In this document: piece by piece, positions 10,046-54,885 of the stretch
Position numbering within the stretch: position 1 is the first letter of the stretch
Layout of the letters: each line of letters starts with the position of its first letter
Assembly (NCBI RefSeq): GCF_030816965.1
Contig: NZ_JAUSYQ010000002.1
Location: forward strand, 434,001 to 498,000
Reading direction: 5' to 3'
Length of the DNA: 64,000 bases
Source of the DNA: Streptomyces canus
Lineage (GTDB): Bacteria > Actinomycetota > Actinomycetes > Streptomycetales > Streptomycetaceae
The notes under the pieces: model-generated
The model's database searches: none
What the model saw: only the letters and a program-made list of their open reading frames with translations
Told to the model about the DNA's origin: nothing
Program-made: the position numbers and the translations under genes

Positions 10046-10075
10046 CACTTCGGAGTGGGTGGTTACCCCGAAGTG
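10046..10075. promoter_or_regulatory. Inverted repeat, candidate HxlR operator
   Basis: CACTTCGG at 10046-10053 is repeated in inverse at 10068-10075 with a 14-nt spacer, in the only gap between the divergent reductase and hxlR-type genes. Confidence 0.5.
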
Positions 10076-10100
10076 AGCAAGCACGTCGGAGGGGTGGGGC

Positions 10101-10463: not shown

Positions 10464-10509
10464 GAACCGGTGACCACGTCCCGCGGGGGCCGTGACAAGA
10501 TCCACTGCC

Positions 10510-11250: not shown

Positions 11251-11256
11251 GGGACC

Positions 11257-13850: not shown

Positions 13851-13920
13851 GGGTGTCCTCTTGATTGTCGGTTGCGAGCAAGAGATGGACATGTGCGAGC
13901 AGACGGTGGACGTGCTTGAT

Positions 13921-13941
13921 GTCTGCGCTCGTGGCGCAGAC
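13921..13941 (-). terminator. Hairpin after the response regulator
   Basis: GTCTGCGC (13921-13928) pairs with 13934-13941 around a 5-nt loop. It lies in the gap downstream of the regulator gene and upstream of the MFS gene, and so separates two minus-strand units. Confidence 0.5.
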
Positions 13942-13983
13942 GAGCGCGCCGCCGTTCGGTGCGTGCGGCAGCGAGTGCGGGTA

Positions 13984-16004: not shown

Positions 16005-16011
16005 GGCCGGC

Positions 16012-33778: not shown

Positions 33779-33818
33779 GGAAATCATCCACATGGTCATG
33801 TCAGACAAGGAGGTCGGG

Positions 33819-34937
33819 ATGACCGTCAAAGGTCCGCGCCGCCTCGTGAGGGCCGCCATGCTCCTGGCGGCCCTCGCCCTGCCCGCATCCCTGCTCACCA
33901 CGCCCAGCGCCTCTGCCGCCGGTTCGCTCACCATGCTCGGTGCCGATGTGTCGACCGCCCAGCGCGCCCTCGACCTCGGTGCCAAGTACTACGACGCGAG
34001 CGGCACCGCCAAGGACCCGCTGGACATCCTCAAGGGCCTCGGCGTCAACTACGTCCGTCTGCGGGTCTGGAACAACCCCGCGAGCGGCTACAACAACAAG
34101 GCCAAGGTGCTGTCGTACGCGAAGCAGGTGAAGGCCAAGGGGCTCAAGCTGCTGGTCGACTTCCACTACTCGGACACCTGGGCGGACCCGGGCAACCAGA
34201 ACAAGCCCGCGGCCTGGGCCGGCCACACCATCAGCCAGCTGCAGACCGACGTCTACAACTACACGTACGACGTCTGCAACAGCCTCAAGTCGCAGGGCAC
34301 CACCCCGGACAGCGTGCAGATCGGCAACGAGATCAACGTCGGCATGCTGTGGAACGAGGGCAAGGTCGTCAACAACGACTTCACCAACCTCAGTCTGCTG
34401 CTCAAGTCGGGCTACAACGCGACCAAGGCGTGCAACAGCGGCACCCAGGTGATCATCCACACCGCTGACGCCGACAGTGACGCGAACGCCCGCTGGTTCT
34501 ACGACGGCATCAAGGCCAAGGGCGTCAACTGGGACATCACCGGGCTGTCCTACTACTGCCCGTGGCACGGCACGATCGCCAACATGGGCAGTGTCGTGGC
34601 CGACATGAAGTCCCGCTACGGCAAGAACGTCATCATCGCCGAGACGGCGTACCCGTTCACCTCGGCCAACGCGGACAGCACCGCCAACTCCATAACGACC
34701 GGCTGCTCGGGCTATCCGCTCAGCTGGCAGGGACAGGCGGACAACTTCACCGCCGTGCAGAACGCCGCCCGCAGCAACGGCGCGATCGGCGTCTTCTACT
34801 GGGAGCCCACCTGGTACGCGGTGACCGGCAACGGGTGGGACCCGGCCGACATCAACAACAGCGGCAACGGCTGGGACAACATGGCCGTCTTCAACTGGAC
34901 CGGCAATGTGAACCCGAACATCAAGTGGACCCCGTAA
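33819..34937 (+). CDS. Secreted GH53 endo-beta-1,4-galactanase
   Basis: 372 residues from ATG 33819, with AAGGAGG upstream; an earlier ATG lacks one. Sec signal (VRAAMLLAALALPASLLTTP to SASA). (beta/alpha)8 barrel of family 53: opening MLGADVSTAQRAL, acid/base Glu 171 in QIGNEINVGMLW, nucleophile Glu 275 in VIIAETAYPF. It cleaves beta-1,4-galactan side chains of pectin. Preceded by twin palindromes and followed by a 13-bp-stem terminator, so it is a single-gene unit, probably under galactan-responsive repression. Confidence 0.93.
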   Translation: MTVKGPRRLVRAAMLLAALALPASLLTTPSASAAGSLTMLGADVSTAQRALDLGAKYYDASGTAKDPLDILKGLGVNYVRLRVWNNPASGYNNKAKVLSYAKQVKAKGLKLLVDFHYSDTWADPGNQNKPAAWAGHTISQLQTDVYNYTYDVCNSLKSQGTTPDSVQIGNEINVGMLWNEGKVVNNDFTNLSLLLKSGYNATKACNSGTQVIIHTADADSDANARWFYDGIKAKGVNWDITGLSYYCPWHGTIANMGSVVADMKSRYGKNVIIAETAYPFTSANADSTANSITTGCSGYPLSWQGQADNFTAVQNAARSNGAIGVFYWEPTWYAVTGNGWDPADINNSGNGWDNMAVFNWTGNVNPNIKWTP

Positions 34938-35094: not shown

Positions 35095-36492
35095 ATGGGG
35101 GTCCAACTGAACAGCGGATCGGCAGCCGGTCACGGGTCGCTGGAGTCGATGAGTCTCGAACCGCTCATGACCCGCGACTACGAACGGGATCCGGCGATCG
35201 TGTACGAGCGTCTGCGCCGGGCGCACGGCCCGGTCGCGCCGGTCGACCTGCTGGGGGTGCCCGTCTGGCTCGTGCTGGGCTACGAGGAGGCGTTCCAGGT
35301 TCTCCGTGACGACCACGCCTGGCCGAAGGGGCTGGAGAACTGGCGGGCGCGGCGGGAAGGGCGGCTGCCCGAGGACTGGCCGCTCGCGCCGTCGCTGGAC
35401 GTCAACCACGTGCTGATCCAGGGCGGTGAGGGCTACCGGGGCCTTCGTGTCGCCTGGGACACCGCGCTCCGGCCGTTCCAGGATCCCCGGCATCCGGTGG
35501 CCAAGCGGCTCAAGGCGAAGATCACCCGTGACGCCGACGAGCTGATCACGCTGTTCTCGCAGGGCGGGCGCACCGGGTGGGCCGATCTGTCGGCGCAGTT
35601 CGCGCGGCCGTTGCCGTTGATGGTGGCGAGTCACCTGCTCGGCTTCCCCGGCTCGCAGCACGACGACGCGTTGATGGACATGTGGCGGGTGCTGGACGCG
35701 GGGCCGGACGCGGGACCCGCGCTGGAGCGGCTGCTGGCGACCCTGTCGGAGCTGGGCGCGTGGAAGATGAAGGAACCCGGCGACGACTTCCCCTCCTACC
35801 TGCTCGCCTCCCATCCCGGGCTGAGTGTCGAGGAGTTGTCGCGTGAGCTGATGATGCTGCTCGGGATGACCTCGGACCATGTCGGCATCCTGATATCCAA
35901 CACGGTCGTCGAGGTCATCACCGGGAACCTCCCCGCGAGCGCCAGTCTGTCGGCGGGGCTGATCAGGGAGACCATGAACCGGGTGGTGATGCAGAAGCCC
36001 CCGCTGATCAACTTCGTGCCCCGGTTCCCGCTGACCGACATGCGGCTCGGCGACTACACCATCGCGGCGGGCGATCCGGTGTGGGTGTCGGTCGGCGCCG
36101 CGCACGCGGACCCGGCCTTCGCGGGCAAGGTCTGCCCCGAGTCGACCATCAGTACGCGGGCCCATCTGTCCTGGGGCGCGGGCCCGCGGCAGTGTCCGGC
36201 CCGGGAACTGGCCGGTGGCACGGCGGCGATCGGGGTGAGCAGGCTCTTCGAGCGGCTGTCCGGGATGGAGTTGTCACTGCCCGTCGACCAACTGCCCTGG
36301 CGCTCATCGCCGTTCATGCGGGGTCTGAGGTCGCTTCCGGTGCGTTACACCCTCTCGGACGCGGCGGCCCTGCCGGTGCCCCCTCCCCCGGTCCTCCCCG
36401 CGCCGGTCGGCTCGGCTCCGGCCGACGAGTCCGCCGTGCGGCCGCGTTCGTCGCTGTGGCGCTACCTGGCGGGGCTGGTGCGCGGGCGCTGA
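35095..36492 (+). CDS. Cytochrome P450 with atypical ExxR and I-helix (CYP157-like)
   Basis: 465 residues. Heme-ligand Cys 367 is in LSWGAGPRQCPARELA: Trp replaces the usual Phe and Pro replaces the Gly after Cys. At the K-helix the sequence is RETMNRVVMQKPP: Glu 292 is followed by Arg at +4, not the near-invariant ExxR (+3). The I-helix reads MMLLGMTSDHVG, lacking the AGxDTT acid/threonine pair. Streptomyces CYP157 enzymes, usually next to conservon genes, are known for natural loss of ExxR; assignment to that family is inferred and no conservon genes are adjacent here. An additional Pro-rich C-terminal tail of ~45 residues ends in SSLWRYLAGLVRGR. Soluble, needing ferredoxin partners. Confidence 0.88.
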   Translation: MGVQLNSGSAAGHGSLESMSLEPLMTRDYERDPAIVYERLRRAHGPVAPVDLLGVPVWLVLGYEEAFQVLRDDHAWPKGLENWRARREGRLPEDWPLAPSLDVNHVLIQGGEGYRGLRVAWDTALRPFQDPRHPVAKRLKAKITRDADELITLFSQGGRTGWADLSAQFARPLPLMVASHLLGFPGSQHDDALMDMWRVLDAGPDAGPALERLLATLSELGAWKMKEPGDDFPSYLLASHPGLSVEELSRELMMLLGMTSDHVGILISNTVVEVITGNLPASASLSAGLIRETMNRVVMQKPPLINFVPRFPLTDMRLGDYTIAAGDPVWVSVGAAHADPAFAGKVCPESTISTRAHLSWGAGPRQCPARELAGGTAAIGVSRLFERLSGMELSLPVDQLPWRSSPFMRGLRSLPVRYTLSDAAALPVPPPPVLPAPVGSAPADESAVRPRSSLWRYLAGLVRGR

Positions 36493-39361: not shown

Positions 39362-39857
39362 ATGCACCTTCTTTACTGCCGCGCCGGTCGTCGCAACAAA
39401 GGCACGCCGGAGTCAAGCTCGTGCGGACTGTGGGGGGTTTGTGAATCCGGAATTCACACGATTCGAATTCGCGCTTGACGACAAGCCTGGTGGGGCGATC
39501 GGCCGGGGAGTCGGGGGTGGCGACGAGGCCAGGACCGGGATTGTTGCAGCGCCCCCGTTGAACTATCAACCGGCCGGTCGAACCGAATCGGTGAACTGAC
39601 TCATTCACGCGCTTCGATACTCCTGCGCGCCATCCCACAGCCTGCGAAAAGGCCGACCTCCGGAATAGGTCTGCACCTTCCCTGCGCCCAGGTTGTCTCA
39701 AATGCAGTGCACAGGGGGCCTCCGCGTCGGGCACAGTCCCTTGTCACTCACGGACTAAGGCCGGCCCCTCGGGACTCACCTCGCGCAAACAGAACGGCGT
39801 TGGGCTCGGCCCGCCGCGGGGGCGCTGCCATATTCGAAGGCCACTTCGGAGGTGGCT
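39362..39857 (+). other. Non-coding divergent region before the accD gene
   Basis: 496 bp with lower GC than its surroundings and no convincing gene. It must hold the promoters of the DUF485/symporter unit and of the carboxylase-FAAL-PKS operon. GTGAAT (39441-39446) and ATTCAC (39452-39457) form an interrupted inverted repeat, and GTTGA...TCAAC (about 39559-39572) a second, small one. GGAGG at 39848-39852 is the ribosome site for the carboxylase. Confidence 0.5.
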
Positions 39858-41411
39858 GTGACACTAGAGGTGACGACGACACGTCTGCCGGACCGCACCG
39901 CCGACCGCGTCCTCGCGCTCGAGGCCCGCCGGGCGCAGGCCGTGGCGGGGAACGGGCCGAGAAGACGCGGCAAGTTCGGCGCCCGGGAGCGGATCGATCT
40001 GCTGCTGGACCCCGGCTCGTTCACCGAGACCGGTCTGTTCGTACGGTCCCGGCCGACCGGGGACGGTGCCCGCCGTCCTTACGGGGACGGGGTGATCACC
40101 GGGTGCGGCACGATCGACGGCCGTCCCGTCTGCGTGTTCGCCCAGGACTCCACGGTCTTCGGCGGCAGCATGGGCGAGGCATTCGGCGAGAAGACCGTGG
40201 CCCTCATGGATCTCGCCCTCAGGACGGGATGCCCGGTCATCGGGCTGAACGACGGCGGCGGCGCCCGCATCCAGGAGGGCGTCGTCTCGCTCGCCCTCTA
40301 CGCCGAGCTGGTGCGCCGCAACGTGCAGGCGTCCGGGGTGATCCCGCAGATCTCCGTCGTCCTGGGCCCGTGTGCCGGCGGGGCCGCCTACTCGCCCGCC
40401 ATCACCGACTTCACCGTGATGGTGGACGGCGCCTCGCACATGTTCGTCACCGGTCCCGACGTCATCGAGGCGGTCACCGGGGAGCGCACCAGCGCCGAGG
40501 AGCTGGGCGGCGCCCGCACCAGCAACTCCCTCAACGGCAACGCCCACTTCCTCGCCGCCGACGAGGCGGAGGCCCTGGACACCGTACGGGAGCTGCTGTC
40601 GTACCTGCCCGCCAACAACCTGGAGCGGCCACCGCAGTACGCTCCCGTGGCACCGCCCGCCGACGTGCCGCTCGACGAGATCGTGCCGGACCGGCTCGGG
40701 CAGGCGTACGACATGCGGGACATCCTGCGGGCGGTCGTCGACGACGGTGAACTCCTGGAGGTCCAGGAGCTGTTCGCGCCGAACATCATCTGCGCGCTGG
40801 CGCTCGTCGAGGGGGCGCCCGTCGGCGTCGTCGCCAACCAGCCGTCGCACGCGGCCGGCGTGCTGGACATCGACGCCTCCGAGAAGGCGGCGCGTTTCGT
40901 ACGGTTCTGTGACGCGTTCGGCATTCCGCTGCTGACCTTCGCCGATGTGCCGGGATACCTCTCCGGGGTCCGGCAGGAGCAGGCCGGGATCATCCGGCGC
41001 GGCGCCAAGCTGCTGTACGCCTACGCCGAGGCGACCGTGCCGAAGGTGACGGTGGTGGTGCGCAAGGCGTACGGCGGCGGCTACGCGGTGATGGGCTCCA
41101 AGCACCTGGGCGCCGACATCAACCTCGCCTGGCCCACCGCACGGATCGCCGTGATGGGCGCCGAGGGCGCGGTGGGCGTCCTGCACCGGCGGGAACTCGC
41201 CGCCGCCGAGGATCCCGAGGCGCTGCGGGCCCAGCTCGTGGACGCGTACGAGAGCACGCACGGCACGCCCTATCTCGCCGCCGAGCGCGGGTACGTCGAC
41301 GCCGTGATCGCCCCGCGCGACACCCGTGACCACATCTGCCGTGCCCTGCGCGCGCTGCGCGGGAAGCGCTCCCCCATGCCGGAGCGCCGGCACGGCAACA
41401 TCCCGCTCTGA
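39858..41411 (+). CDS. Acyl-CoA carboxylase beta subunit (carboxyltransferase, AccD4-like role)
   Basis: 517 residues from GTG 39858, 5 nt after GGAGG. Biotin-dependent carboxyltransferase: [20 protein letters not shown], the acyl-CoA-side oxyanion region [32 protein letters not shown], and the C-terminal [12 protein letters not shown] with the family ending RRHGNIPL. It carboxylates an acyl-CoA to a 2-carboxyacyl-CoA and needs a biotinylated alpha subunit encoded elsewhere. First in a run with a fatty acyl-AMP ligase and a PKS, so it probably makes the PKS extender unit, as AccD4 does for mycobacterial Pks13; chain length cannot be read from the sequence. Confidence 0.9.
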
Positions 41412-41436
41412 CCTGCCTCGCGAGGAGACCTGCCCG

Positions 41437-43137
41437 ATGGACAACCGCCGTCCCCCGCTCGCCCCCGCGTTCCGGAGCCTGCCGGAGTACGTACAGCACT
41501 GGGCCCGAGCCACCCCCGACCGACGGGCGTTCACCTTCGTCGACCATCCCGCCCCGGATTCGCGTGGCGTCCACCGCACGCTGACCTGGCGCCGGCTCGA
41601 CGTGCGCGTGCGGGCGGTGGCCGCCCGGCTCGCCGAGGAGGCCGAGCCCGGGTCGCGGGTCGCCCTGCTGTGCCCCCAGGGGCTGGAGTACGTCACCGGC
41701 TTCCTGGCGACGCTCGCCGCCGGCCTCATCGCCGTACCGCTGTATCCGCCCGGTCTGCCGGGCCAAGGGGACCGGCTGACGGCGGTCCTGGCCGACGCAC
41801 GTCCTTCGGTCGTCGTGACGACGAGCCGGCACTTGGCTGAGGTACAGGAGTTGTGCGACCGGGTCGTCGCCGTGGACCAGGTCCCGGACGCCGCCGCGAC
41901 AGACCTGAAACCGGCCGACGCGGAGGTCGCCTACCTCCAGTACACCTCCGGTTCGACCCGTACCCCGGCCGGGGTGGAGATCAGTCACGCCAATGTCGTC
42001 GCCAACGCCCGTCAGGCGCTGAGCGCCTACGGCGCCGAGGCCCATCCGGTGACGTGCGTGGGCTGGCTGCCGCTGTACCACGACATGGGGCTCGTCCTGA
42101 GCATCGCCGCCCCGGTCGTGCGGGGGCTGCTGTCGGTGCTCATGGATCCGGTCGCCTTCCTGCACGAACCCGCGCGCTGGCTGCGGCTGTTGGCCTCACA
42201 TCCGCGCGCGCTGAGCGCGGCGCCCAACTTCGCCTACGACTACTGCGCCTCGGCGGTGACCGACGCGCAGAAGGCGGAACTGCGGCTGGACGGGGTCGCC
42301 GCGCTGATCAACGGCAGTGAGCCGGTCCGCCCCGGCACGGCCGACAGGTTCCAGGCGGCCTTCGCCGGTCAGGGGCTCGTCGCGGAGACGCACTGTCCCT
42401 CGTACGGGCTCGCCGAGGCGACCGTCTTCGTCAGCGCCGCCGGGCCCGGGGAACCGTTGCGGCGCTTCGCCCTCGACCGCGACGCGCTCGCCGAGGGGAA
42501 GGCGCTGCCCGCGCGCCCCGACGACCCCCGGGCCGTGCTGCTGGCGGGCTGCGGCACTCCGGCGGGGCAGCAGGTCCGTATCGTCGACCCCGTCTCCGGC
42601 GCCCCTCTGTCCGAGGGTGAGGTCGGTGAGATCCAGGTGCGGGGTCCCAACGTGGGCCGCGGTTACTGGAACCAGGAAGAGCAGACCCGGCGCGTCTTCA
42701 CAGCCGACGGCCGGCTGCGCACCGGTGACCTGGGAACGGTCCTGGAGGGGCAGTTGATCGTCACCGGTCGGCTGAAGGACCTGATCGTCGTCGACGGACG
42801 CAATCACTATCCGCAGGACCTGGAGGCCACCGTCCAGGACACCCATCCGGCGGTCCGGCGCGACCGGCTCGCCGCGTTCGGGGTCACGGGCGGCTCCGGC
42901 GAGCGGGTGGTCGTGGTGGCCGAGCACACGCGGACCACGAGCCTCGCCGAGATCGACGTACCGGCTCTGGTACGGGCCGTGCGTGCGGCCGTCTCCGGAC
43001 GGCACGGGGTGCGCCTCGCCGACGTCCTGCTCGTCCCGCCGGGCACGGTGCCGCGGACGTCGAGCGGCAAGGTGTCGCGGGCGCTGACACGTGAGCGGTA
43101 TCTGGCGGGTGCCTATGCGCCGGACGGCGCCGAGTGA
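41437..43137 (+). CDS. Fatty acyl-AMP ligase (FAAL, FadD32-like)
   Basis: 566 residues from ATG 41437, GGAGA upstream. Adenylate-forming enzyme with FAAL-type motifs: YLQYTSGSTRTPAGVEISH (P-loop, residues ~170-190), WLPLYHDMGL, CPSYGLAEATVFVSA, RTGDLG, and the hinge KDLIVVDGRNHYPQDLEATV. The terminal SSGKVSRAL supplies the catalytic Lys. It would activate a fatty acid as acyl-AMP and pass it to the N-terminal carrier of the next-encoded PKS. Its stop overlaps that gene by 4 bp (GTGA). Confidence 0.92.
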   Translation: MDNRRPPLAPAFRSLPEYVQHWARATPDRRAFTFVDHPAPDSRGVHRTLTWRRLDVRVRAVAARLAEEAEPGSRVALLCPQGLEYVTGFLATLAAGLIAVPLYPPGLPGQGDRLTAVLADARPSVVVTTSRHLAEVQELCDRVVAVDQVPDAAATDLKPADAEVAYLQYTSGSTRTPAGVEISHANVVANARQALSAYGAEAHPVTCVGWLPLYHDMGLVLSIAAPVVRGLLSVLMDPVAFLHEPARWLRLLASHPRALSAAPNFAYDYCASAVTDAQKAELRLDGVAALINGSEPVRPGTADRFQAAFAGQGLVAETHCPSYGLAEATVFVSAAGPGEPLRRFALDRDALAEGKALPARPDDPRAVLLAGCGTPAGQQVRIVDPVSGAPLSEGEVGEIQVRGPNVGRGYWNQEEQTRRVFTADGRLRTGDLGTVLEGQLIVTGRLKDLIVVDGRNHYPQDLEATVQDTHPAVRRDRLAAFGVTGGSGERVVVVAEHTRTTSLAEIDVPALVRAVRAAVSGRHGVRLADVLLVPPGTVPRTSSGKVSRALTRERYLAGAYAPDGAE

Positions 43138-46100
43138 GGGCCGTGGACGCCGGTGCGGTACGCCGCCTGGTCGCGGAGCGGGTCGCCGCGTGGTCCGGTA
43201 CGGCCGTCGCGGAGGTGGCGATGGACCGGCCGCTGGCGGATCTCGGCATGTCCTCGCGGGACGCGGTCGTGCTGGCCGGGGAACTCTCCCGGCTGACGGG
43301 ACGGGAGCTGCCGGCGACGTTGCTGTGGGAGGCGCCCACCGGGGAGGCTCTGGTGGCGCACCTGTGCCGTACGCCGTCGCAGACCACGCCGCCGGCGCCC
43401 GCCGCGCCGGCGCCGCCCACCTCGGAGCCCATCGCCGTCATAGGGCTCGGCTGCCGCCTCCCCGGCGGCGTGCACGGCCCGGCCGACTACTGGCGGCTGC
43501 TGACCGACGGCGTCGACGCGATCAGACGCGTCCCGGAGGACCGTTGGCGCGACTTCACCCCCTTCCCGCCCGAGGACGCGCTCCCCTACGGCGGCTATCT
43601 CGACGACATCGCCGGGTTCGACGCGGACTTCTTCCGGATCACCCCGCGCGAGGCCGCCGTGATGGACCCGCAGCAGCGGATCCTCCTGGAGGTCGTCCAC
43701 GAGGCCCTCGCCCATGCCGCCGTCCCGGCCGCGTCCCTCGCGGGCACGGCCACCGGTGTCTTCGTCGGGGTCTCCGCCCCGGAGTACGGCTCGCTGACCG
43801 GCGCCGACCCCGCGGCCGTCGATCCCTGGGCGCCGGCGGGCGGTGCGCTGAGCGTGACCGCGGGCCGGCTGGCGTATGTGCTGGACACGCGTGGGCCGAG
43901 CATGGCCGTGGACACCGCCTGCTCCTCCTCGCTCGTCGCGGTGCACCACGCCTGCGTGAGCCTGCGCACGGGCGAGAGCGACACGGCGATCGCCGCGGGC
44001 GTCAACCTGCTGCTCTCCCCCACCGTCACCGTGGCGTTCCGGCGGGCGGGCGCCCTCGCGCCGGACGGCCGGTGCAAGCCGTTCTCGCCGGGCGCCGACG
44101 GCATCGGCCGCGGTGAGGGCTGCGCGGCCGTGCTCCTGAAGCGGCTGTCCGACGCCGAGCGGGACGGCGACCGAGTGCTCGCCGTCATCCGCGCCACGGC
44201 CGTCAACTCCGACGGCCGCTCCAACGGTCTCCTCGCCCCCAACCCGGCCGCCCAGCAGGCCCTGCTGACCACCGCGTACGCCCGGGCCGGGCTCACCCCC
44301 GCCCACATCGACTACGTCGAGGCGCACGGCACCGGCACCCCGCTCGGCGACCCGATCGAGGCGGGCGCGCTCGGCGCCGTGCTCGGTGCGGGCCGCGACC
44401 CCGACCAGCCGCTGCTCCTCGGCTCGGTGAAGTCGAACCTGGGGCACCTGGAGTCCGCCGCGGGCATCGCCGGGCTGGTGAAGACCGTGCTCGCCCTGCA
44501 CCACGACGTCATCCCGCCCTCCCTGCACTGCTCCGAGGGCAGCGCCCTGGACGACGTCCGGCTGCGGGTGGTGTCCGAGGACGAGCCGTGGCCGCGCTAC
44601 GGCGGCACCGCCACGGCCGGGGTCTCCGGGTTCGGGTTCGGCGGCACCAACGCCCATGCGGTGCTGGAGGAATGGCGACCCGGCGTGCTGCCCGCGCGAC
44701 CGAGTGAGGAGCCCGGGGCCCGGCTCCATCTCCTGTCCGACGTGGACGAGGAGCGGCTGCGGGACACCGCGTCCCGGCTCGCCGACTGGCTCCGGACGGC
44801 GGCCGCGCATCCTGCCGACGTGGCGCGCACGCTGGCCGGACGGACCGGCCGCGGAGGGGTGCGGGCGGCGGTGGTCGCCCGGGACCGCGACGAACTCGCC
44901 GACGGGCTGGACGCGTTGGCGCAGGGCCGCCCGCACGGGCAGGTCGTGACCGGTGAACGTGACCTCGTGGGACCGGGTCCGGTGTGGGTCTTCTCCGGGT
45001 ACGGCAGCCAATGGGCAGGGATGGGACGCCGGTTGCTGACCGAGGAGCCCGCCTTCGCCGCCGCCGTGGAGAAGCTCGACGCGGAGTGCGGGCTGTCCCT
45101 GTACGACCGTCTCGCGTCCGGCAGCGAACTCGACAGGCTGGAGGTGGCCCAGCCCGTTCTGTTCGGACTCCAGGTGGCGCTGGCCGAGTTGTGGCGCTCC
45201 TACGGCGTCGAGCCCGCCGCCGTCATCGGCCACTCCCTGGGCGAGGTGGCCGCCGCGGTGTGCGCGGGGGCGCTGGACGTGTCGGAGGGCGCCCGGATCG
45301 TCGCCGTACGGGCCGGGCTGCTCAGCAGGCTCCAGGGCGGGGCCATGGCGGTGGTCGATCTGGACGACAGTGAACTCGACGCCCTGGCCCGGGACTTCCC
45401 CGGTGTGCATGTCGCCGTTCACTCCTCGCCCGGGCAGAAGGTCGTCACCGGTGAGGAACCGGCGGTGGCGCGGCTCGTGCGGTGGCTGGAGCGGCAAGGG
45501 CGGGCGGCCCGGTCCATGCGGGTCGTCGGTGCCGGGCACTCGCCCCATGTCGAGCCGCTGCTCGCGGAGTTGACCGAGTCCTTGGCCGACGTCGGAGGCA
45601 GAGCGCCCCTCGTGCCGGTCTACTCCACCGTCCTGGACGACCCGCGCGGCGACTGTGTCTTCGACGCCGCCCACTGGGCCGCGAACCTGCGGCGGCCGGT
45701 ACGGCTGGACCGGGCCGTCGCCGCGGCCGCCGCCGACGGCCACACCGCCTTCGTCGAGATCTCGCCCCACCCGGTCCTGGCCCGGGCCGTCACCGACAAC
45801 GTGCCCGGTGCCCTCACGATCGGCACGCTCCGGCGGGAGGCCGACGGATGCGCCGACTTCCTCACGCAGGTGGCGACCCTGTACTGCGCGGGCGGACGGC
45901 TGCCGCTGCCGCCGGGGCGGGTCGTCGACCTGCCCCAGCCGCGCTGGAAGCACGTGCGGCACTGGTGGACGGACGGGCAGGGAGCGGCACCCACGAAGGT
46001 GCGGACGGAGGTACCGCCGGAGGTACCCGCGAACACTGAGGACACCTCTCTCGCCGCCCGTCTGTGCCATCACATCGCCACGGTCACCGGCCACCCCGCC

Positions 46101-47072
46101 GGCCGGGTCACCCCCGCCACCGCGCTGGCCGACCTCGGACTCGACTCGCTGATGGCGGTCCGAATCCGCACCGCCCTGGAGCGCGAGTTCGCCGTCGAGC
46201 TGCCGCTGCGCGACCTGCTCGGCGCCACCACGGTCCAGGAGGTGGCCGACCGGGTCCGGACCGGACCGGTACGCCCGCTGCGCGTCACCGGCAGCGGCCC
46301 CCCGCTCTTCCTCGTGCACGCCGCCGGTGGAACGACCGACGTCTACCGGGCACTGGCCGAACGCCTCGGCGACGAGCGGCCCGTGTACGGTCTCGAACGC
46401 CTCGACGACGCCCCCACGGTGACCGAGAAGGCGCGCCGCTACGCCGAGGCCATCACAGCCGTACACCCCGACGGGCCGTTTCTGCTGGGCGGTTGGTCCT
46501 TCGGCGGCTTCGTCGCCCAGGAGACCGCGCGGCAACTGACCGCGGCGGGGCGGGACGTGGAGCTCGTGGTCCTCATCGACTCCGTACGCCCCCTCCCCCA
46601 GCCGGACCGGACACCGGCCGAGCGGCTGCGCGCCCACTTCGAGGGGTTCGCCCGACACGTCCGCGACGCCTACGGGGTCCGGCTCGAGCTGCCGTACGAC
46701 GACCTCGTCGCGATGGACGACGACGGAGAACGCATCGACACCGTGCTGGAGATCCTGCGCGCGTCCGCCGATGTGCCGCCCGCCGCTCTGGAGCACCAGC
46801 GCTCCTCCTACCTGGACCTGAGGATCGGCGAGGCCCACCGGCCGGGCCGTCACGACGGGCGGGTGGTCCTGTACCGGGCCACGGAGCCCGCTCCGCACAC
46901 CGTGCGTGACCCCGCCTACGAACGCGACGACCAGGCGCTGGGCTGGGACGAGGTGTGCCCGCGCCTGACCGTCGTACCGGTCGCGGGACACCACCTGTCG
47001 CTGCTCGACCCGCCGCATGTCGACGAGATCGCCGCCCGTCTGGGGCGTGAGCTCGCCGAAGGGACCCGCTGA
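43134..47072 (+). CDS. Pks13-like single-module polyketide synthase, ACP-KS-AT-ACP-TE
   Basis: 1312 residues, GTG start coupled to the FAAL. Domains: N-terminal ACP (1-80; phosphopantetheine Ser 41 in LADLGMSSRDAV), KS (~97-520; Cys 263 in DTACSSS, His 398 in EAHGTGTPLGD, His 438 in SNLGHLE), AT (~610-900; Ser 701 in GHSLGE, His 802), ACP (~965-1045; Ser 1005 in LGLDSLMAV) and TE (~1058-1305; Ser 1122 in GGWSFGG, Asp 1149 in VLIDS, His 1286/1287 in GHHLSLLDPP). There is no KR, DH or ER. This is the Pks13 order: FAAL loads a chain on ACP1, AT loads a carboxyacyl unit on ACP2, KS condenses them, TE releases an alpha-alkyl beta-ketoacyl product. The AT specificity box reads GAGH (799-802) instead of YASH or HAFH, so an ordinary malonyl or methylmalonyl unit is not predicted. 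Confidence 0.93.
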   Translation: MRAVDAGAVRRLVAERVAAWSGTAVAEVAMDRPLADLGMSSRDAVVLAGELSRLTGRELPATLLWEAPTGEALVAHLCRTPSQTTPPAPAAPAPPTSEPIAVIGLGCRLPGGVHGPADYWRLLTDGVDAIRRVPEDRWRDFTPFPPEDALPYGGYLDDIAGFDADFFRITPREAAVMDPQQRILLEVVHEALAHAAVPAASLAGTATGVFVGVSAPEYGSLTGADPAAVDPWAPAGGALSVTAGRLAYVLDTRGPSMAVDTACSSSLVAVHHACVSLRTGESDTAIAAGVNLLLSPTVTVAFRRAGALAPDGRCKPFSPGADGIGRGEGCAAVLLKRLSDAERDGDRVLAVIRATAVNSDGRSNGLLAPNPAAQQALLTTAYARAGLTPAHIDYVEAHGTGTPLGDPIEAGALGAVLGAGRDPDQPLLLGSVKSNLGHLESAAGIAGLVKTVLALHHDVIPPSLHCSEGSALDDVRLRVVSEDEPWPRYGGTATAGVSGFGFGGTNAHAVLEEWRPGVLPARPSEEPGARLHLLSDVDEERLRDTASRLADWLRTAAAHPADVARTLAGRTGRGGVRAAVVARDRDELADGLDALAQGRPHGQVVTGERDLVGPGPVWVFSGYGSQWAGMGRRLLTEEPAFAAAVEKLDAECGLSLYDRLASGSELDRLEVAQPVLFGLQVALAELWRSYGVEPAAVIGHSLGEVAAAVCAGALDVSEGARIVAVRAGLLSRLQGGAMAVVDLDDSELDALARDFPGVHVAVHSSPGQKVVTGEEPAVARLVRWLERQGRAARSMRVVGAGHSPHVEPLLAELTESLADVGGRAPLVPVYSTVLDDPRGDCVFDAAHWAANLRRPVRLDRAVAAAAADGHTAFVEISPHPVLARAVTDNVPGALTIGTLRREADGCADFLTQVATLYCAGGRLPLPPGRVVDLPQPRWKHVRHWWTDGQGAAPTKVRTEVPPEVPANTEDTSLAARLCHHIATVTGHPAGRVTPATALADLGLDSLMAVRIRTALEREFAVELPLRDLLGATTVQEVADRVRTGPVRPLRVTGSGPPLFLVHAAGGTTDVYRALAERLGDERPVYGLERLDDAPTVTEKARRYAEAITAVHPDGPFLLGGWSFGGFVAQETARQLTAAGRDVELVVLIDSVRPLPQPDRTPAERLRAHFEGFARHVRDAYGVRLELPYDDLVAMDDDGERIDTVLEILRASADVPPAALEHQRSSYLDLRIGEAHRPGRHDGRVVLYRATEPAPHTVRDPAYERDDQALGWDEVCPRLTVVPVAGHHLSLLDPPHVDEIAARLGRELAEGTR

Positions 47073-47094
47073 ACGTGATCCGAGGAGAGCCGCC

Positions 47095-48018
47095 ATGCAC
47101 CGTCGCACCACCGGAGTGTCCCGACGTACCGTCACCAAGGCCGCGGCCGGTGCCGGTCTGGCCGTCCTGTTCGGCGCCCGGACCGCCGCCGCGCTGGGGT
47201 CACGCACCGTCGACGTGTCCGTGTCCTCCGCCGCACTGGGCCGCAGTGCGCCGGTGCGCCTGATCCTGCCGTCGGGCTTCGGCTCGCAGCCCACACGCAC
47301 CTACCCCGTGCTGTACCTGCTGCACGGCGCCCACGACGACTACACGTCCTGGACGCGGGAGACGGACATCGAGGCCTTCACCGAGGGCCGGGACCTGATC
47401 GTGGCGATGCCCGACGCGGGGCCCACCGGGATTCCCACCGCCTGGCGCGGCGGGCCCGACTACGAGACCTTCCAGCTGAAGGAGGTTCCGGCGCTGCTCG
47501 CCCGCGACTACCGGGCCTCCGGAGTACGGGTCGTCGCAGGGGTGTCCACCGGCGGCTACGGCGCCATGGCGCACGCGGCACGGCACCCGGGCATGTTCAC
47601 CGCGGCGGCCTCCTACAGCGGGATCCTCGACACCATGGCGCCCGGTGTCCCCACCCTGATGGACGCCATCGTGGCCCGCGAGAACCTGGTGCCCACGTCG
47701 CTGTGGGGCAGTCCGTTCCTGAACCTGCTCACCTGGCTCGACTTCAACCCGCGGAACCGGGCCGCGGGACTGCGCGGCACCGCCCTGTACGTCTCCAGCG
47801 GCAGCGGGCTGGCGGGAGGCACGGGTGACTGGCTGCCCGAGGCCCTGGAGAGCGCCCTGTGGCCCTCCGCCCACAGCTTCACCGACATGCTCGCGCTGCA
47901 GCGCATCCCGGTCACCACACACTTCTACGCAGGAGGAGGGCACAGCTGGGCCTACTGGAAGCAGGAGTTCACCGCGTCGTGGCCGTTGCTCGCCCGAGGC
48001 CTGGGGGTGCCGCAGTGA
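47095..48018 (+). CDS. Tat-exported antigen-85/esterase-D-like acyl esterase
   Basis: 307 residues from ATG 47095 with GAGGAGA upstream. Twin-arginine signal (VSRRTVTKAAAGAGLAVLFG). Alpha/beta-hydrolase of the PF00756 family: VRLILPSGF, YPVLYLLHGAHDDYTSW, nucleophile Ser 151 in AGVSTGGYGAM, and His 283 in GGGHSWAYWKQEF, which resembles the HSWEYW end of mycobacterial antigen 85 mycolyltransferases. The family also includes plain esterases. Encoded 22 bp after the PKS, so transfer or hydrolysis of the PKS lipid outside the membrane is a fair inference. Confidence 0.85.
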   Translation: MHRRTTGVSRRTVTKAAAGAGLAVLFGARTAAALGSRTVDVSVSSAALGRSAPVRLILPSGFGSQPTRTYPVLYLLHGAHDDYTSWTRETDIEAFTEGRDLIVAMPDAGPTGIPTAWRGGPDYETFQLKEVPALLARDYRASGVRVVAGVSTGGYGAMAHAARHPGMFTAAASYSGILDTMAPGVPTLMDAIVARENLVPTSLWGSPFLNLLTWLDFNPRNRAAGLRGTALYVSSGSGLAGGTGDWLPEALESALWPSAHSFTDMLALQRIPVTTHFYAGGGHSWAYWKQEFTASWPLLARGLGVPQ

Positions 48019-48140
48019 TGTCGGTACCGTCGGAACACGGAACGCAACGCAGGGGTCGTCCGTCCAACACAGGACTTGCCCCTCGCCCCACGGGCAACAG
48101 CCCGCGGGTGAGCCGCTTCCGGGTGAAAGGAGGGCCCCCC

Positions 48141-49373
48141 TTGGCCACCGCCGCCCCGCACGGCGTCCCGGAGGGCCGCGGCGCCGCCGCGGTCCCGCCC
48201 GACCTGGCCGAACTGCTGCGCGCCCAGCTGGAGGAGGTCGCCGACGAGGTCGAGGAGGAGGTCCGCCGGCAGGTGCCCGAGTACGCGCGTCCGGCCGACG
48301 GAACCTACCGCGAACACCTCAGAGCCGGTGTGGTGCAGGCGCTCACCCTGTTCGTCGACCACATCGCCGACCCGCGCGGCCGCGGGGAGGCGATCGCGGC
48401 GACGTACTACGAACTCGGGCGCGGTGAGGCCCTGGAGGGGCGCAGTCTGGACGCCTTGCAGTCCGCGCTGCGGGTCGGCGGGCTGCACGCCTGGCGCCTG
48501 ATGGGCCGTACGGCCGAGCAACTCGGCCTCGACTCCGCGGTGGTCACGGCGCTGGGCGAGCTCGCCTTCCGCACCGTGCACGAGGTCGCGGAGGCGGCTG
48601 CGGCCGGGTACTCCGAGGCACGCGCGCACAACACGGACGAGCTGGAGCGGCGCCGCAGACGCCTGCTGGACCTGCTGCTCGGCGAGGGGCCGGTCGCGCC
48701 GGCGGCGGTGCAGGACATGGCGCACGGTGCCCGGTGGTCGGTGCCCAGGCAGGTCGCGGTCGTCGCGCTCGCGGCCACGCCGGACCAGCGGGAGGAGGAG
48801 TGGCCGCTGGCCGCCGCGGGAGCGCTGGTGGACATGGAGTCGCGGCCGCCGCGGATGCTGATCCCCGACCCGGACGGCTCCGGGCGCTTCGGGGGCCGGG
48901 CGTTCAGCCTCGCGCTGCGCGGGCGGCCGGCCGCGATCGGGCCGACGGTGCCGCTCGCCGAGGCCGCCCGGTCGCTGCGCTGGGCCACCCGCGCGCTGGG
49001 GTTGATGGGGCGCGGGATCCTTCCCCGGCAGGGGGTGGTGCGCTGCGCGGACCACTTGTCGACCCTGCTGCTGCACAGCGACGAGCCGATGCTCGACCAG
49101 CTGCGGGGGCGGGCCCTCGCACCGCTCGAGACGGTGTCGGAGGGGCAGCGCGAGCGGCTCGCCGAGACGCTGCTGGCGTGGCTGCTCAGCGGCAGCAATG
49201 TGCCCGACGTCGCCGCCCGTCTCCACGTCCATCCGCAGACGGTGCGTTATCGGCTGCGTCAGCTGGAGAAAGTCTTCGGTGATGCGCTGCACGATCCCGG
49301 CGCCCGTCTGGATCTCATTCTGGCACTCACCACGGCACAAAAGAGCGAGGAATTTCTGAATTCCCGTCCATAA
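48141..49373 (+). CDS. PucR/CdaR-type transcriptional regulator
   Basis: 410 residues from TTG 48141, chosen because AAAGGAGG lies 6-8 nt upstream; an ATG at 48018 overlapping the esterase stop would add 41 low-complexity residues. An N-terminal sensor region (LAELLRAQLEEVADEVEEEV, ELGRGEALEGRSLDALQ) and a C-terminal HTH_30 domain (LAETLLAWLLSGSNVPDVAA, RLHVHPQTVRYRLRQLEKVF) define the family. Inside the operon and thus the likely pathway regulator of the lipid locus. Confidence 0.88.
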   Translation: MATAAPHGVPEGRGAAAVPPDLAELLRAQLEEVADEVEEEVRRQVPEYARPADGTYREHLRAGVVQALTLFVDHIADPRGRGEAIAATYYELGRGEALEGRSLDALQSALRVGGLHAWRLMGRTAEQLGLDSAVVTALGELAFRTVHEVAEAAAAGYSEARAHNTDELERRRRRLLDLLLGEGPVAPAAVQDMAHGARWSVPRQVAVVALAATPDQREEEWPLAAAGALVDMESRPPRMLIPDPDGSGRFGGRAFSLALRGRPAAIGPTVPLAEAARSLRWATRALGLMGRGILPRQGVVRCADHLSTLLLHSDEPMLDQLRGRALAPLETVSEGQRERLAETLLAWLLSGSNVPDVAARLHVHPQTVRYRLRQLEKVFGDALHDPGARLDLILALTTAQKSEEFLNSRP

Positions 49374-49453
49374 CACCGGGCACGGTCCAGCGAATAAGTT
49401 TCGGGACGTCCTTTCCGCAGGCGTTTCACACGCCCCACCCTCAAAGGATCCCC

Positions 49454-50095
49454 ATGCGTATTCGCTTGTACCTCGCCGCGCTGTCGCTGGTCGGCGGCGC
49501 CGGTGTGGCCACCGTCTCGGCACCACCGGCATCCGCCGCGGCCTGCTCGGACATCGACGTCGTCGCCGCTCGCGGCACCTTCGAGCCCGGCACGCTCGGC
49601 CTGATCGTCGGCGACCCGGTGTACTCCGCCCTCCAGAGGAAACTCACGGGCCGGAGTGTGACCAGCTACAAGGTGAACTACCCCGCGGACCTTTCCCTCA
49701 CCTCGGCCGCGCAGGGCAACGCGGATCTGGTGAACCACGTGAAAAGCCAGGCGGCCGCCTGTCCGAATCAGCGTTTCATTCTGGTCGGCTATTCGCAGGG
49801 CGCGAACGTCGTCGACAACTCCATCGGCATCAGCAGCGCCGGTGCCGTGGTCGGCAGTCCCATCGTGGCCACCATTCCCGCCGCGCTGGAGTCACGGGTG
49901 GCCGCGGTGCTGCTGTTCGGCAACCCGATCCGGGCGATCGGCAAGAGCGTCACCGGCACGTACCAGAGTCGCACCATCGACTTCTGCGCCAAGGGTGACC
50001 CCGTCTGCGAAGCGGGCGGCAACGACACGCTGGCGCACCTCGGCTACACGGCGAACGCCGACGCGGCGGCGACCTTCGCCGCGGGCAAGGTCTGA
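49454..50095 (+). CDS. Secreted cutinase-family esterase
   Basis: 213 residues, AAAGGA upstream of ATG 49454. Sec signal ending at ASAAA. Cutinase fold: opening ACSDIDVVAARGTFEPG, nucleophile Ser 114 in LVGYSQGANVV, Asp 182 in CAKGDPVCE, His 195 in DTLAHLGY, with conserved cysteines. Cleaves acyl esters. In mycobacteria a cutinase-like lipase gene (Rv3802c) sits between fadD32 and the antigen 85 genes; here a cutinase closes the corresponding group. A plant-cutin role is the ordinary alternative. Confidence 0.9.
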   Translation: MRIRLYLAALSLVGGAGVATVSAPPASAAACSDIDVVAARGTFEPGTLGLIVGDPVYSALQRKLTGRSVTSYKVNYPADLSLTSAAQGNADLVNHVKSQAAACPNQRFILVGYSQGANVVDNSIGISSAGAVVGSPIVATIPAALESRVAAVLLFGNPIRAIGKSVTGTYQSRTIDFCAKGDPVCEAGGNDTLAHLGYTANADAAATFAAGKV

Positions 50096-50099: not shown

Positions 50100-50150
50100 C
50101 GGCATGAAGAAGGGCCCGGGAGGAGTTCCTCCCGGGCCCTTCGCATGCCG
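50100..50150. terminator. Strong bidirectional terminator
   Basis: A perfect 15-bp stem (50110-50124 with 50127-50141) extended by an outer 7-bp stem (50100-50106 with 50144-50150), between the convergent cutinase and lipase genes. Confidence 0.9.
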
Positions 50151-50155: not shown

Positions 50156-51868
50156 CTATCGGGGTGTGCGGGCGAATTCCGTGAGGGCGGTGGACACCGG
50201 CTCGGGCCGGCCGTTGTTCTGTACCGGCGCCGCGGTCAGCACATCGAGGTGCTGGTAGCCGTCCGCGACCACGGGGTGCAGGTCGGCGGGGACCCGGCCG
50301 GCGAGCAGTCCGTCGCCCGCGAGGACCGTGAGCGTCGGGTTGGCGGTGAGCCCGTCGGGGTGCACGACGAGCCGCTTCACCTGCGGGGAGGTGGCCAGTT
50401 CGATGTCGGTGACGAGTTTGGTCGGGAAGTACTGCTCGGTGAAGTCCAGCGGCTGCGCGGCCATGCTGCGCGCCAGCTCCTGGATGTCGGTGACCTCCTT
50501 GCCCGCCGCGGTGAACGGCGTCCCGTCCGACGACCGGTGACCGGGGTCGTCCGGGTCGCCGACACGGTCGTAGTTGCGCCAGGTGTAGAGCGGACCGTGC
50601 GGCTCGGCGGGAATGGCCTTGTACTCGGTGCCGAAGAGGCCAGGCTGCGACGAACTCCCGTTGGCCGCGGGGAAGTTCTTGTCGGTGATGGGCCCGCCGT
50701 CGAAGAAGCCCACGCTGCTCTGGAGGAACGCGAGCGGGACGGACTGGTCGTCCATCAGCGAACCGAGGATCGCCTCGTTGGTGAGCCGGAAGTCCTTCAC
50801 CGCGGGTGAGCCGGTGAGGAAGGTGGCGGTGTCCTTGGAGAACAGGAAGCGGTTGGTGGCCTCGATGTTGGTGTTGGCGGGCAGGTAACTCGGCAGGTCG
50901 GCCTCGCCGCCCGGATCCTGCAGGGCACCCACGCCCGCGATGGCGAGCAGGGTCATGGTCTCGGGGTTGAGCAGGACGGGCGCGGACAGCGAGCGCGGGA
51001 GCAGTCCGCTGTCGAGTCCGGCCTGGACGACGCCGTAACCGAGGCCGACGTCCGGCAGGTTGGTGTCGTCCGGGATGCTGCCGCTCAGGTCGGCGAGCGA
51101 GGTGGAGACGGTGGTGTCGAGGGCGAAGTAGCCGGCGCACTGGTTGTGTCCGGCGTCGGCGGTGGTGGCGGGGTTGCCGTCGAAGTCGGCGGCGGCGAAG
51201 TACCCGGTGATGACACCGCCGAGCGAGTGGCCGCCGCACAGCACCTTGTCCTTGCGGACCCCCTGGTCGGGCAACTCGGCGGCCAGCAGGTCGTATTCGT
51301 CGCGTACGGTCTGCTCGATGCCGAGCTTCGCCATCCATCCGAGCTTGTCGTTGCCGACGAACCCGGCGAAGGTGCGGCCCTGGACCTGTTTGCCGCGGTA
51401 GTAGTAGTCGACGGCGGTGTGCTGGTTTCCGGAGGCGATTCCGGTGCGGTCCTCGAGGCAGTTGGAGCGCCGGTCCAGGGCCCAGAACTCGATGTGCCGG
51501 CCCTGCTCGGCGGCGCGGGTCACGGTGTTGCGGGCGACGCTGTCGAAGGCTCCGGCGCCCTCCAGGATGCCCGGTTGGGCGACGAGGACCCGGTCGGCGT
51601 CGGCTGATGACGCAGGCCCCGACGAGGACCGGTAGCGCAGATACGACAGCCAGTCGCACGCCGCCGGACGGGCCCCGAAGGACGCCGGCAGGGGAGCCTT
51701 CACGCGTACGACGGTCTCGGTCACACCCCCGCTCGTCCCGACGGGTGTCTCGGTTCTCGCGCTGTCCGCGGACGCCGACGGGGTGAACGCCCCGGTGGTC
51801 AGCAGCACCGCCAGCGCCGCGGCACCCAGCGTCCTCGGGGTTCTTCCTCTGCTGCGACTCGTTTCCAT
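50156..51868 (-). CDS. Large secreted alpha/beta-hydrolase (lipase-like)
   Basis: 570 residues from ATG 51868. Signal peptide (TLGAAALAVLLTTGAFTPSAS). Nucleophile box CGGHSLGGVITGYFAAADF near residue 205, and a late VADGYQHLDVLTAAP His. Length and cysteine pattern (ACDWLSYLRYR, NCLEDRTGI, NQCAGYF) match a secreted actinomycete hydrolase family with no firm substrate. It is the third exported esterase/lipase in 5 kb, convergent with the cutinase. Confidence 0.75.
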   Translation of the reverse strand: METSRSRGRTPRTLGAAALAVLLTTGAFTPSASADSARTETPVGTSGGVTETVVRVKAPLPASFGARPAACDWLSYLRYRSSSGPASSADADRVLVAQPGILEGAGAFDSVARNTVTRAAEQGRHIEFWALDRRSNCLEDRTGIASGNQHTAVDYYYRGKQVQGRTFAGFVGNDKLGWMAKLGIEQTVRDEYDLLAAELPDQGVRKDKVLCGGHSLGGVITGYFAAADFDGNPATTADAGHNQCAGYFALDTTVSTSLADLSGSIPDDTNLPDVGLGYGVVQAGLDSGLLPRSLSAPVLLNPETMTLLAIAGVGALQDPGGEADLPSYLPANTNIEATNRFLFSKDTATFLTGSPAVKDFRLTNEAILGSLMDDQSVPLAFLQSSVGFFDGGPITDKNFPAANGSSSQPGLFGTEYKAIPAEPHGPLYTWRNYDRVGDPDDPGHRSSDGTPFTAAGKEVTDIQELARSMAAQPLDFTEQYFPTKLVTDIELATSPQVKRLVVHPDGLTANPTLTVLAGDGLLAGRVPADLHPVVADGYQHLDVLTAAPVQNNGRPEPVSTALTEFARTPR

Positions 51869-51964
51869 GCTGGGACCGTAGAACTGCGCGGGCACGGCTC
51901 TCGGCGGTTGCTCACAAGAACGCAGGTCTCGGTGGACGCTTTGTCACCCACCGCAGAGGAGACG

Positions 51965-53715: not shown

Positions 53716-54885
53716 ATGGACACGGACCGGACCGTACGCGTCTTCACCGACTTCTACCGCGAGCGCGGACACCACCTGATCACGGGCAGCACACTGCTGC
53801 CACCGCCCGGGGACCCGGTGCTGTTCACCACCTCGGGCATGCATCCGCTCACGCCTCATCTGGAGGGCCGCCCCCATCCCCGGGGCAGCCGCCTCGTCAA
53901 TGTGCAGCGCTGTCTGCGCACCACCGATCTCGACGAGATCGGCGACTCCACCCACCTGACGGTGTTCGAGATGCTCGGCTCGTGGTCGCTCGGCGACTAC
54001 GGCCACTCGCAGAGCCTGCGCTGGGGCTACGAGCTGCTCCGTGACGGGTTCGGCATCCCCCGGGAGAGACTCCACGTCACGGTCTTCGGCGGTGACGAGC
54101 AGGTGGGCCCCGATCTCGAATCGCTGCGCACCTGGCAGAAGTCGGGGGTGCCCGTGGAACTCACCCGGGAGGACAACTGGTGGTCCAACGGGCCCGTCGG
54201 CCCGTGCGGCCCCGACTCGGAGATCTTCGTGTGGACCGGCGGCACCCCGCCCCAGGGCACCCCCACCACGGACCCGCGGTGGGTGGAGATCTGGAACCAC
54301 GTATTCATGCGGTACCGCCGCCTCGAGGACGGCTCTCTCCGGCCCCTCGATCGTCCGAGCGTCGACACCGGCATGGGGCTGGAGCGCCTGGTCACCATCC
54401 TGCAGGGCCATGACTCGGTCTACGACACCGACCTGTTCGAGCCGTGGATGCGACTGCTGCCTCCCCTGTGGGGGCTCGACGAGCCGTCGCTGCGTCTGGT
54501 CTGCGACCATCTGCGCTCCGGTGTCGTCGTGATCGGCGACGGGGTACGGCCGTCCAACACCGGCCGCGGTTACGTCCTGCGCCGCGTCGTCCGCCGCCTG
54601 CTCACCACCCTGCGGCGCAACGACCCGTCCCGCACCCTCTCCGACCTGCCGGTGGAGCTCCTCCAGCACACGCTGGACCACTTCCGTACGAGCTGCGGGA
54701 CAGGGCTCGTCCGTGACGTGCTGCTGGAGGAGGAACGCCGGTTCGACAGGCTGCTGGAACGCGGTCGGCGTCTGCTGTCCGGGCCGCGGTACCGGGGGCC
54801 GCTGAGCGAGGAGGACTACGAGTACCTGCACGACACTCACGGCCTGCCCCGCGACCTGGTTCTCAGCCTGTGCCGGGAAGGGTGA
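53716..54885 (+). CDS. Stand-alone alanyl-tRNA synthetase catalytic core
   Basis: 389 residues from ATG 53716, GAAGGA upstream. It aligns with only the first ~380 residues of AlaRS (about 880): TSGMHPLTPHLEG, motif 2 FEMLGSWSLGDYG, NGPVGPCGPDSEIF, motif 3 DTGMGLERLVTILQG, SNTGRGYVLRRVVRR. It stops just after HDTHGLPRDLVLSL, which corresponds to the LYDTYGFP region. The editing, zinc HExxH and C-Ala domains are missing. E. coli AlaRS fragments of this size are known to form aminoacyl-adenylate but charge tRNA poorly, so amino-acid activation for another acceptor is possible. The canonical Cys in CGPC is Asp here. A housekeeping AlaRS must lie elsewhere. Confidence 0.85.
   Translation: MDTDRTVRVFTDFYRERGHHLITGSTLLPPPGDPVLFTTSGMHPLTPHLEGRPHPRGSRLVNVQRCLRTTDLDEIGDSTHLTVFEMLGSWSLGDYGHSQSLRWGYELLRDGFGIPRERLHVTVFGGDEQVGPDLESLRTWQKSGVPVELTREDNWWSNGPVGPCGPDSEIFVWTGGTPPQGTPTTDPRWVEIWNHVFMRYRRLEDGSLRPLDRPSVDTGMGLERLVTILQGHDSVYDTDLFEPWMRLLPPLWGLDEPSLRLVCDHLRSGVVVIGDGVRPSNTGRGYVLRRVVRRLLTTLRRNDPSRTLSDLPVELLQHTLDHFRTSCGTGLVRDVLLEEERRFDRLLERGRRLLSGPRYRGPLSEEDYEYLHDTHGLPRDLVLSLCREG

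Follow-up and report, generated by a model that had tools for sequence, protein, structure and literature searches.

The closest described counterpart of the operon reported here is the mycolate condensation locus of mycobacteria, accD4-pks13-fadD32-Rv3802c-fbpD-fbpA (Rv3799c–Rv3804c). Its polyketide synthase (PKS), Pks13, holds a half-dehydratase region termed DH* (PMC11649247). The thioesterase (TE) of Pks13 releases the α-alkyl-β-keto product on polyols, with trehalose preferred (PMC9210659). Deletion of the mycobacterial reductase leads to a β-keto ester or, once CO2 is lost, a ketone (PMC2568869). For a 2018 review, how the mycomembrane arose is a mystery, and mycolic acids are narrowly distributed within one lineage (PMC6194230). 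Another paper has a figure legend in which the cluster for mycolates is said to be conserved ‘in all actinomycetes’, but its text names mycobacteria, corynebacteria, nocardia and rhodococci only (PMC2625445). A further comparison is offered by MccB, the medium-chain acyl-CoA carboxylase subunit of the stambomycin pathway, which serves a modular macrolide PKS (PMC5187497).

Here we analyze a 64,000-nucleotide stretch of the Streptomyces canus genome (referred to as the window). A PKS recorded under the name of S. canus shares 95% identity with that of the window. On the basis of reading frames and Pfam families, six consecutive plus-strand genes encode an acyl-CoA carboxyltransferase (AccD), a fatty acyl-AMP ligase (FAAL), a PKS, a secreted esterase, a PucR-type regulator and a secreted cutinase. 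All five gene types of the mycolate locus are thus common to this operon; unlike that locus, it sits in a Streptomyces and contains a PucR regulator. No Pks13-type locus in Streptomyces is described in the titles or abstract openings among the matches listed in our literature searches. We consider it probable, if well short of settled, that the operon encodes a pathway for two-chain lipid condensation and export, a sister of the mycolate condensation locus and not a member of it.

Relationship of the operon to the mycolate locus

The gene set is conserved within Streptomyces. Our locus comparison took in 34 Streptomyces rows with a best PKS segment of at least 70% identity, and AccD-FAAL-PKS-esterase-PucR-cutinase keeps one order and one strand in all 34 up to the contig ends. 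The six genes are complete in 27 rows; the other seven are interrupted by contig ends. Two pairs of rows (L043/L189 and L067/L080) represent the same locus, so that at most 32 of the 34 are independent. Because the order is kept throughout, chance or artefact as the source of the grouping was rejected. In a survey of 392 Streptomyces genomes, the esterase had matches of at least 74% identity in 43, with 11 more at 54–61% and 5 at 41–44%; PKS linkage was checked in the examined loci, and contig-cut loci such as G001 were missed.

An earlier note on this DNA had listed five of the six genes as a collinear group, with a 4-bp coupling between FAAL and PKS and an exported esterase carrying HSWAYW, and had looked to synteny across Streptomyces as a check. 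Order and strand in the 34 rows bear out the latter. The five genes agree with the frames and Pfam families, FAAL and PKS share 4 bp (43134–43137) where one frame stops and the other starts, and the esterase has HSWAYW near its C-terminus and a twin-arginine-like stretch, SRRTVTK, near its N-terminus. The regulator between esterase and cutinase, however, had been overlooked. The note had also pointed to a possible relative in a type I PKS locus of S. coelicolor (around SCO6826-6827); one paper refers to these genes only as ‘another polyketide’ and a second lists them by number, neither of which decides the matter.

The best PDB match of the PKS is Pks13 (825 bits, versus 645 for MAS and 628 for DEBS), and its best NCBIfam match is mycolic_Pks13 (NF040607, 1172.6 bits). 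The Pks13 order of acyl carrier protein (ACP), ketosynthase (KS), acyltransferase (AT), second ACP and TE is present with the active-site residues in place. Those of AT, both ACPs and TE align with relatives or with Pks13, and the Ser, Asp and His of TE align with those of the Pks13 TE. At the AT specificity position, the site of YASH or HAFH, all 36 orthologue rows (repeats of the same genome included) read GAGH. The seven Pks13 ATs read GASH in four cases and GAGH in three, and the 13 related loci described below read GAGH (5), AAGH (3), GGAH (3) or AASH (2). GA[G/S]H, common to Pks13 and the window PKS, occurs in none of 48 other ATs. The conserved Arg of AT, which we take to be the carboxylate-binding residue, is kept in 104 of 104 rows.

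In a KS tree of 68 rows, the window KS with its orthologues (6), the related loci (13) and Pks13 (7) form one clade with support of 96/94, outside which fall 11 other FAAL-linked KS and 31 other KS. Before this tree was built, non-target rows of 11 loci, the row sets L075, L077, L073 (second KS) and L104, and near-duplicates were removed, and just six window-type rows were retained. Each of the top four PDB matches of the FAAL is either FadD32 or an acyl-CoA synthase that we take to be a FadD32 orthologue. The FAAL tree, from which rows below 30% identity or 72% coverage were excluded, places it as a neighbour of FadD32 (82/88). In the AccD tree (40 rows; exclusion below 30% identity or 75% coverage), the window AccD groups with the AccDs beside Pks13 and with that of one related locus at moderate support (84/92). 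The nearest neighbours of the window KS, FAAL and AccD in these trees are the mycolate proteins.

The KS tree was judged insufficient as sole proof, given an approximately unbiased (AU) test p of 0.454 for an alternative grouping, and FAAL, KS and AT were therefore concatenated into an alignment of 31 rows and 1308 columns that covers 10 of the 13 related loci. The resulting tree joins the window family to Pks13/FadD32 at 95/96, apart from other FAAL-PKS pairs, and rejects two alternatives narrowly (AU p 0.0425 and 0.0494). Among the pairs left outside the joint clade are four from mycobacteria (L069, L070, L245 and L249), in which, as in the window, the FAAL adjoins an ACP-KS-AT protein.

The window AccD carries Ala at the position of PccB Asp421/422 (its residue 412) and Val at a conserved Phe position (residue 154). 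Ala together with the absence of Phe is found in 13 of 13 AccD4-type rows, namely the window and its orthologues (5), related locus G106 (1), AccDs beside Pks13 (6) and one relative of those; all 27 other AccDs have the Phe and none has the Ala. Ala for Asp421 lets PccB accept a longer chain (butyryl), and Gly161 of MccB, which like the window AccD has Ala for Asp421, takes the place of a Phe shared by all subunits known to carboxylate chains of up to four carbons (PMC5187497). The Ala and the missing Phe thus predict a substrate longer than C4 for the window AccD. A reading as a plain PccB, as raw scores would have it, was ruled out by the tree and these residues. We also notice that in L212 (G081) a second AccD, not at the Pks13 locus, has AccD4-type residues, with Ser in place of the Phe and with Ala at 421/422.

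The structure model of the esterase is matched best by the mycolyltransferase family, which points to a similar fold. Ser151 and His283 are invariant and Glu252 nearly so over 23 rows, and Ser-Glu-His is the mycolyltransferase triad. A rough regular expression, blind to variants such as PRRTVAK, finds the twin-arginine-like pattern in 21 of 27 orthologues.

Related PKSs accompanied by the same type of esterase were found in two further Streptomyces genomes (G014, G026), in another family of the same order (G043, G044, G046) and in two other families of the class (G105, G201 and G265; G106, G150, G161 and G248). Like the window, these loci keep a terminal-TE PKS and a related esterase together, and they fall in the same KS clade. 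The FAAL adjoins the PKS in 9 of the 12. In G105 and G201 the two are some 10 kb apart, and the 20-kb stretch examined in G265 does not include a FAAL. A thirteenth locus, G008, was used in the trees; it has a FAAL-PKS pair and no esterase on its 12 kb contig. The locus of G106 (L092, 2012–15095) forms a row of FAAL, PKS, AccD, esterase and a major facilitator superfamily (MFS) transporter. Its FAAL-PKS-AccD order is that of the Pks13 loci, and in its AccD Gly stands in place of the Phe, with Ala at 421/422.

Points against the relationship and alternative explanations

A number of observations weigh against reading the operon as kin of the mycolate locus. The PKS stays under the curated cut-off of NF040607 (2100 bits) and the FAAL under that of FadD32 (NF038339, 488.4 versus 975 bits), and two general FAAL models of NCBIfam (531 bits) outscore the FadD32 model. 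The DH* region after AT and the long linker before TE, both features of Pks13 (PMC11649247, PMC9210659), are absent from the window PKS. Its spacing is 303 residues from the AT Ser to the ACP and 118 from the ACP to the TE Ser, versus 443–468 and 304–348 in three Pks13, whose frames run to 1782–1888 aa. The window KS stands beside the Pks13 clade (100/100) and not inside it. KS alone does not reject the alternative mentioned above, a grouping of Pks13 with the mycobacterial FAAL-PKS pairs, and it fits the window and its relatives as a clade without Pks13 at least as well (p 0.648). The concatenated tree itself drew warnings of long branches and of uneven amino-acid composition, which extended to Pks13 rows.

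The remaining genes add to these points. By raw score, the AccD is nearest to PccB (700 bits, versus 494–538 for AccDs beside Pks13). Its Phe position was placed by the sole conserved Phe of the stretch in an alignment with PccB-type proteins, not MccB, and the residue there is Val, unlike the Gly of MccB. An AccD is present in the examined stretch of only one of the 13 related loci, G106. Four of the five related PKSs scanned (G026, G150, G106 and G105, not G014) have ketoreductase (KR) and dehydratase (DH)-type domains between AT and ACP, unlike the window PKS. The alignment behind the esterase model holds six mycolyltransferase rows, and second place among the PDB matches of the esterase goes to an ordinary esterase (75 bits). 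Because short generic esterases had given long branches, 16 generic rows and two others were left out of the esterase tree. The best tree does not unite linked esterases and mycolyltransferases in one clade; such a clade is 8.2 log units worse and is not rejected (AU p 0.141). Neither a reductase nor an exporter is among the six operon genes by Pfam, the rest of the genome not having been searched for CmrA or MmpL3.

The cutinase belongs to another branch than the cutinase of the mycolate locus, and a sister relationship to the cutinases of Pks13 loci is rejected (AU p 0.00094), which rules it out as an orthologue of Culp6 (Rv3802c). It scores 24.5 bits on the Culp6 model, versus a cut-off of 570 (NF050160), and the 13 related-locus stretches hold no match to it. 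The cutinase parallel therefore looks convergent. With the curated cut-offs not reached, regions of the PKS missing and a different cutinase, the operon is best filed as a sister of the mycolate locus. The earlier note had read the locus as a parallel or ancestral two-chain condensation pathway, a view that unrelated clades in the KS and FAAL trees could have undone. Both proteins group with Pks13/FadD32, as does the KS, AT and FAAL combination, and the AccD parallel is upheld by its grouping with the AccDs beside Pks13. That proposal stays the best reading for these genes, but its cutinase parallel falls away.

Could the operon instead encode a FAAL-loaded PKS of one module that takes a short extender (malonyl, methylmalonyl or ethylmalonyl) to form, as a specialised metabolite, a simple β-keto or α-methyl-β-keto lipid, with esterase and cutinase as ordinary secreted passengers? 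The raw similarity of the AccD to PccB is in keeping with this, as are the presence of a FAAL beside a PKS in several other loci and the strong similarity of the PKS to modular PKSs too. We nevertheless regard it as unlikely, since the AccD has Ala at 421/422 and lacks the Phe universal in subunits for up to four carbons (PMC5187497), the AT has the Pks13-type GAGH and neither YASH nor HAFH, and malonyl or methylmalonyl units would need no dedicated AccD. A product in the form of a free bioactive lipid, such as an α-branched β-lactone or ketone of the lipstatin kind, is improbable to our mind. Here the hydrolases would serve self-protection or maturation and not the envelope. Such a role would suit the four serine-hydrolase-type domains in or beside the operon (TE, esterase, cutinase and the downstream GHSLGG protein), the MFS transporters near five related loci (L084, L085, L086, L089 and L092) and the patchy presence in Streptomyces (the 43 of 392 genomes). 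The six genes, however, include neither a lactone synthetase nor a nonribosomal peptide synthetase, and the modelled esterase fold is nearest to acyl transferases that act on envelope sugars.

Slightly less probable still is convergence, in which the gene set was assembled independently from a FAAL-PKS pair, a carboxylase and secreted hydrolases, so that the mycobacterial match would say nothing of ancestry. The branch of the cutinase, the moderate single-gene support for FAAL and AccD and the failure of KS alone to reject another placement speak for it. So does the gene order, which in three Pks13 loci runs FAAL-PKS-AccD along transcription and in the window starts with AccD. Against it, the mycolate genes adjoin the window family in all of the KS, FAAL and AccD trees, the concatenation reaches 95/96 with alternatives narrowly rejected, and G106 combines FAAL, PKS, AccD and esterase, its FAAL-PKS-AccD part arranged as in the Pks13 loci.

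Gene layout and surroundings

Table 1. Coordinates in the window of the operon genes, their domains and adjoining features.
Feature	Position	Strand	Evidence
AccD carboxyltransferase	39852..41411	+	Pfam Carboxyl_trans, 612 bits
FAAL (fatty acyl-AMP ligase), near FadD32	41437..43137	+	Pfam, NCBIfam, PDB matches, tree
PKS, 1312 aa, ACP-KS-AT-ACP-TE	43134..47072	+	Pfam PP-binding (two), KS, AT, Thioesterase
Ketosynthase domain, PKS residues 98–466 (Pfam span)	43425..44531	+	Pfam, KS tree
Acyltransferase domain; GHSLGE, conserved Arg, GAGH replacing YASH/HAFH	44982..45893	+	Pfam, alignment
Second ACP (LGLDSL)	46059..46256	+	Pfam, alignment
Thioesterase domain, GWSFGG	46266..47057	+	Pfam, alignment
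Secreted esterase, predicted mycolyltransferase (Ag85/Cmt) fold, twin-arginine-like signal	47095..48018	+	PF00756, alignment, model
PucR/CdaR-type transcriptional regulator	48018..49373	+	PF13556, conserved position
Secreted cutinase (CE5/CULP type, not Culp6)	49454..50095	+	PF01083 (142.5 bits), tree and AU test
GC-rich perfect inverted repeat 3' of the cutinase	50112..50139	.	Read from sequence
Convergent protein, signal-like N-terminus, GHSLGG (alpha/beta-hydrolase-like) motif	50156..51895	-	No Pfam match

The FAAL reading frame (41326–43137) is open from a GTG at 41326, and the ATG at 41437, past the AccD stop, is the more probable start from the sequence. The stop of the esterase and the start of the regulator overlap (TGATG). 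The inverted repeat behind the cutinase may mark the end of the operon transcript. It is not among the matches of the terminator scan, because no T run follows it.

At the upstream side, an SSF transporter was considered as a member of the operon and ruled out. It reaches at least 70% identity in just 10 of the 34 rows, which include one cut at the right contig end and the duplicate L189, and the unit is therefore taken to start at AccD. At the downstream side, the convergent GHSLGG protein has matches covering 90% or more of its length in 27 of 34 rows. Six of the others end at a contig edge before it, and L051 holds a 6% piece only. It adjoins the cassette and is 79–97% identical among the 26 loci listed, and it is a possible accessory part of the system.

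PucR-type regulators 46% identical to that of the window lie beside the related PKSs of L091 (G105; 16049–17173) and L172 (G201; 954–2078), and the mycobacterial FAAL-PKS pair of L245 (G116; 5497–17599) lies near two cutinase matches. About 21.5 kb from the operon, a membrane protein of the MMPL family (PF03176; 16012–18324, minus strand) adjoins a histidine kinase; it is a candidate lipid exporter. A 465-residue protein (35095–36492, plus strand) has a weak P450 match only (25.3 bits versus a cut-off of 22.8), and a relative of it lies near the cassette in L093. A 389-residue protein (53716–54885, plus strand) has an alanyl-tRNA synthetase-type domain (PF01411) and is shorter than a full synthetase. 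Polysaccharide-degrading enzymes surround the operon (903–3889, 23710–26787, 33792–34937 and 61777–63906), with pectate-lyase-like, alginate lyase, GH38, GH53 and GH106-like types represented.

Proposed pathway and its meaning

In the pathway that we propose, FAAL would adenylate a fatty acid and load it on the N-terminal ACP, as in the mycolate locus, from where the chain would pass to KS. AccD, together with the α and ε subunits of the cell, would carboxylate an acyl-CoA longer than C4, and AT would load this α-carboxyacyl unit on the second ACP. One decarboxylative Claisen condensation by KS would then give an α-alkyl-β-ketoacyl-ACP. Release by TE would probably occur onto a polyol, as in Pks13, or else yield a free acid that loses CO2 to become a ketone. 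By analogy, the product should be an α-alkyl-β-keto lipid. Since no ketoreductase is found among the six genes, a β-keto ester or, after CO2 loss, a ketone is expected. Outside the membrane, an acceptor would receive the acyl group through the mycolyltransferase-like esterase, while trimming or recycling of esters would fall to the cutinase; PucR would be the regulator.

Compared by hhalign, the region after AT in Pks13 and DH_N of the relatives matched with a probability of 93 and an E value of 3e-7, a result from one pair of thin profiles; two Pks13 had no DH match in Pfam. This weak match hints that a DH-KR unit present in their ancestor may have been lost both from Pks13 and from the window PKS. 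A wider proposal, which we put forward tentatively and hold to be doubtful as a whole, is that about one in ten Streptomyces species produces a two-chain lipid like a mycolate and places it outside the membrane with a dedicated mycolyltransferase-like enzyme. The mycobacterial locus would then have branched off within an older FAAL-PKS-esterase system of actinobacteria. The ancestor of that system would have had DH-KR, of which the DH* of Pks13 would be a relic.

From the operon we predict a two-chain lipid that has not been described before and is processed outside the cell membrane, which would add a class to the envelope or secreted lipids of actinobacteria. The comparison also suggests where the DH* region of Pks13 may come from, and harmless, tractable Streptomyces would serve as a safe system for the chemistry of the pathway. 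A sister gene set in Streptomyces and other actinobacteria would give the mycolate pathway an ancestry outside its own lineage.

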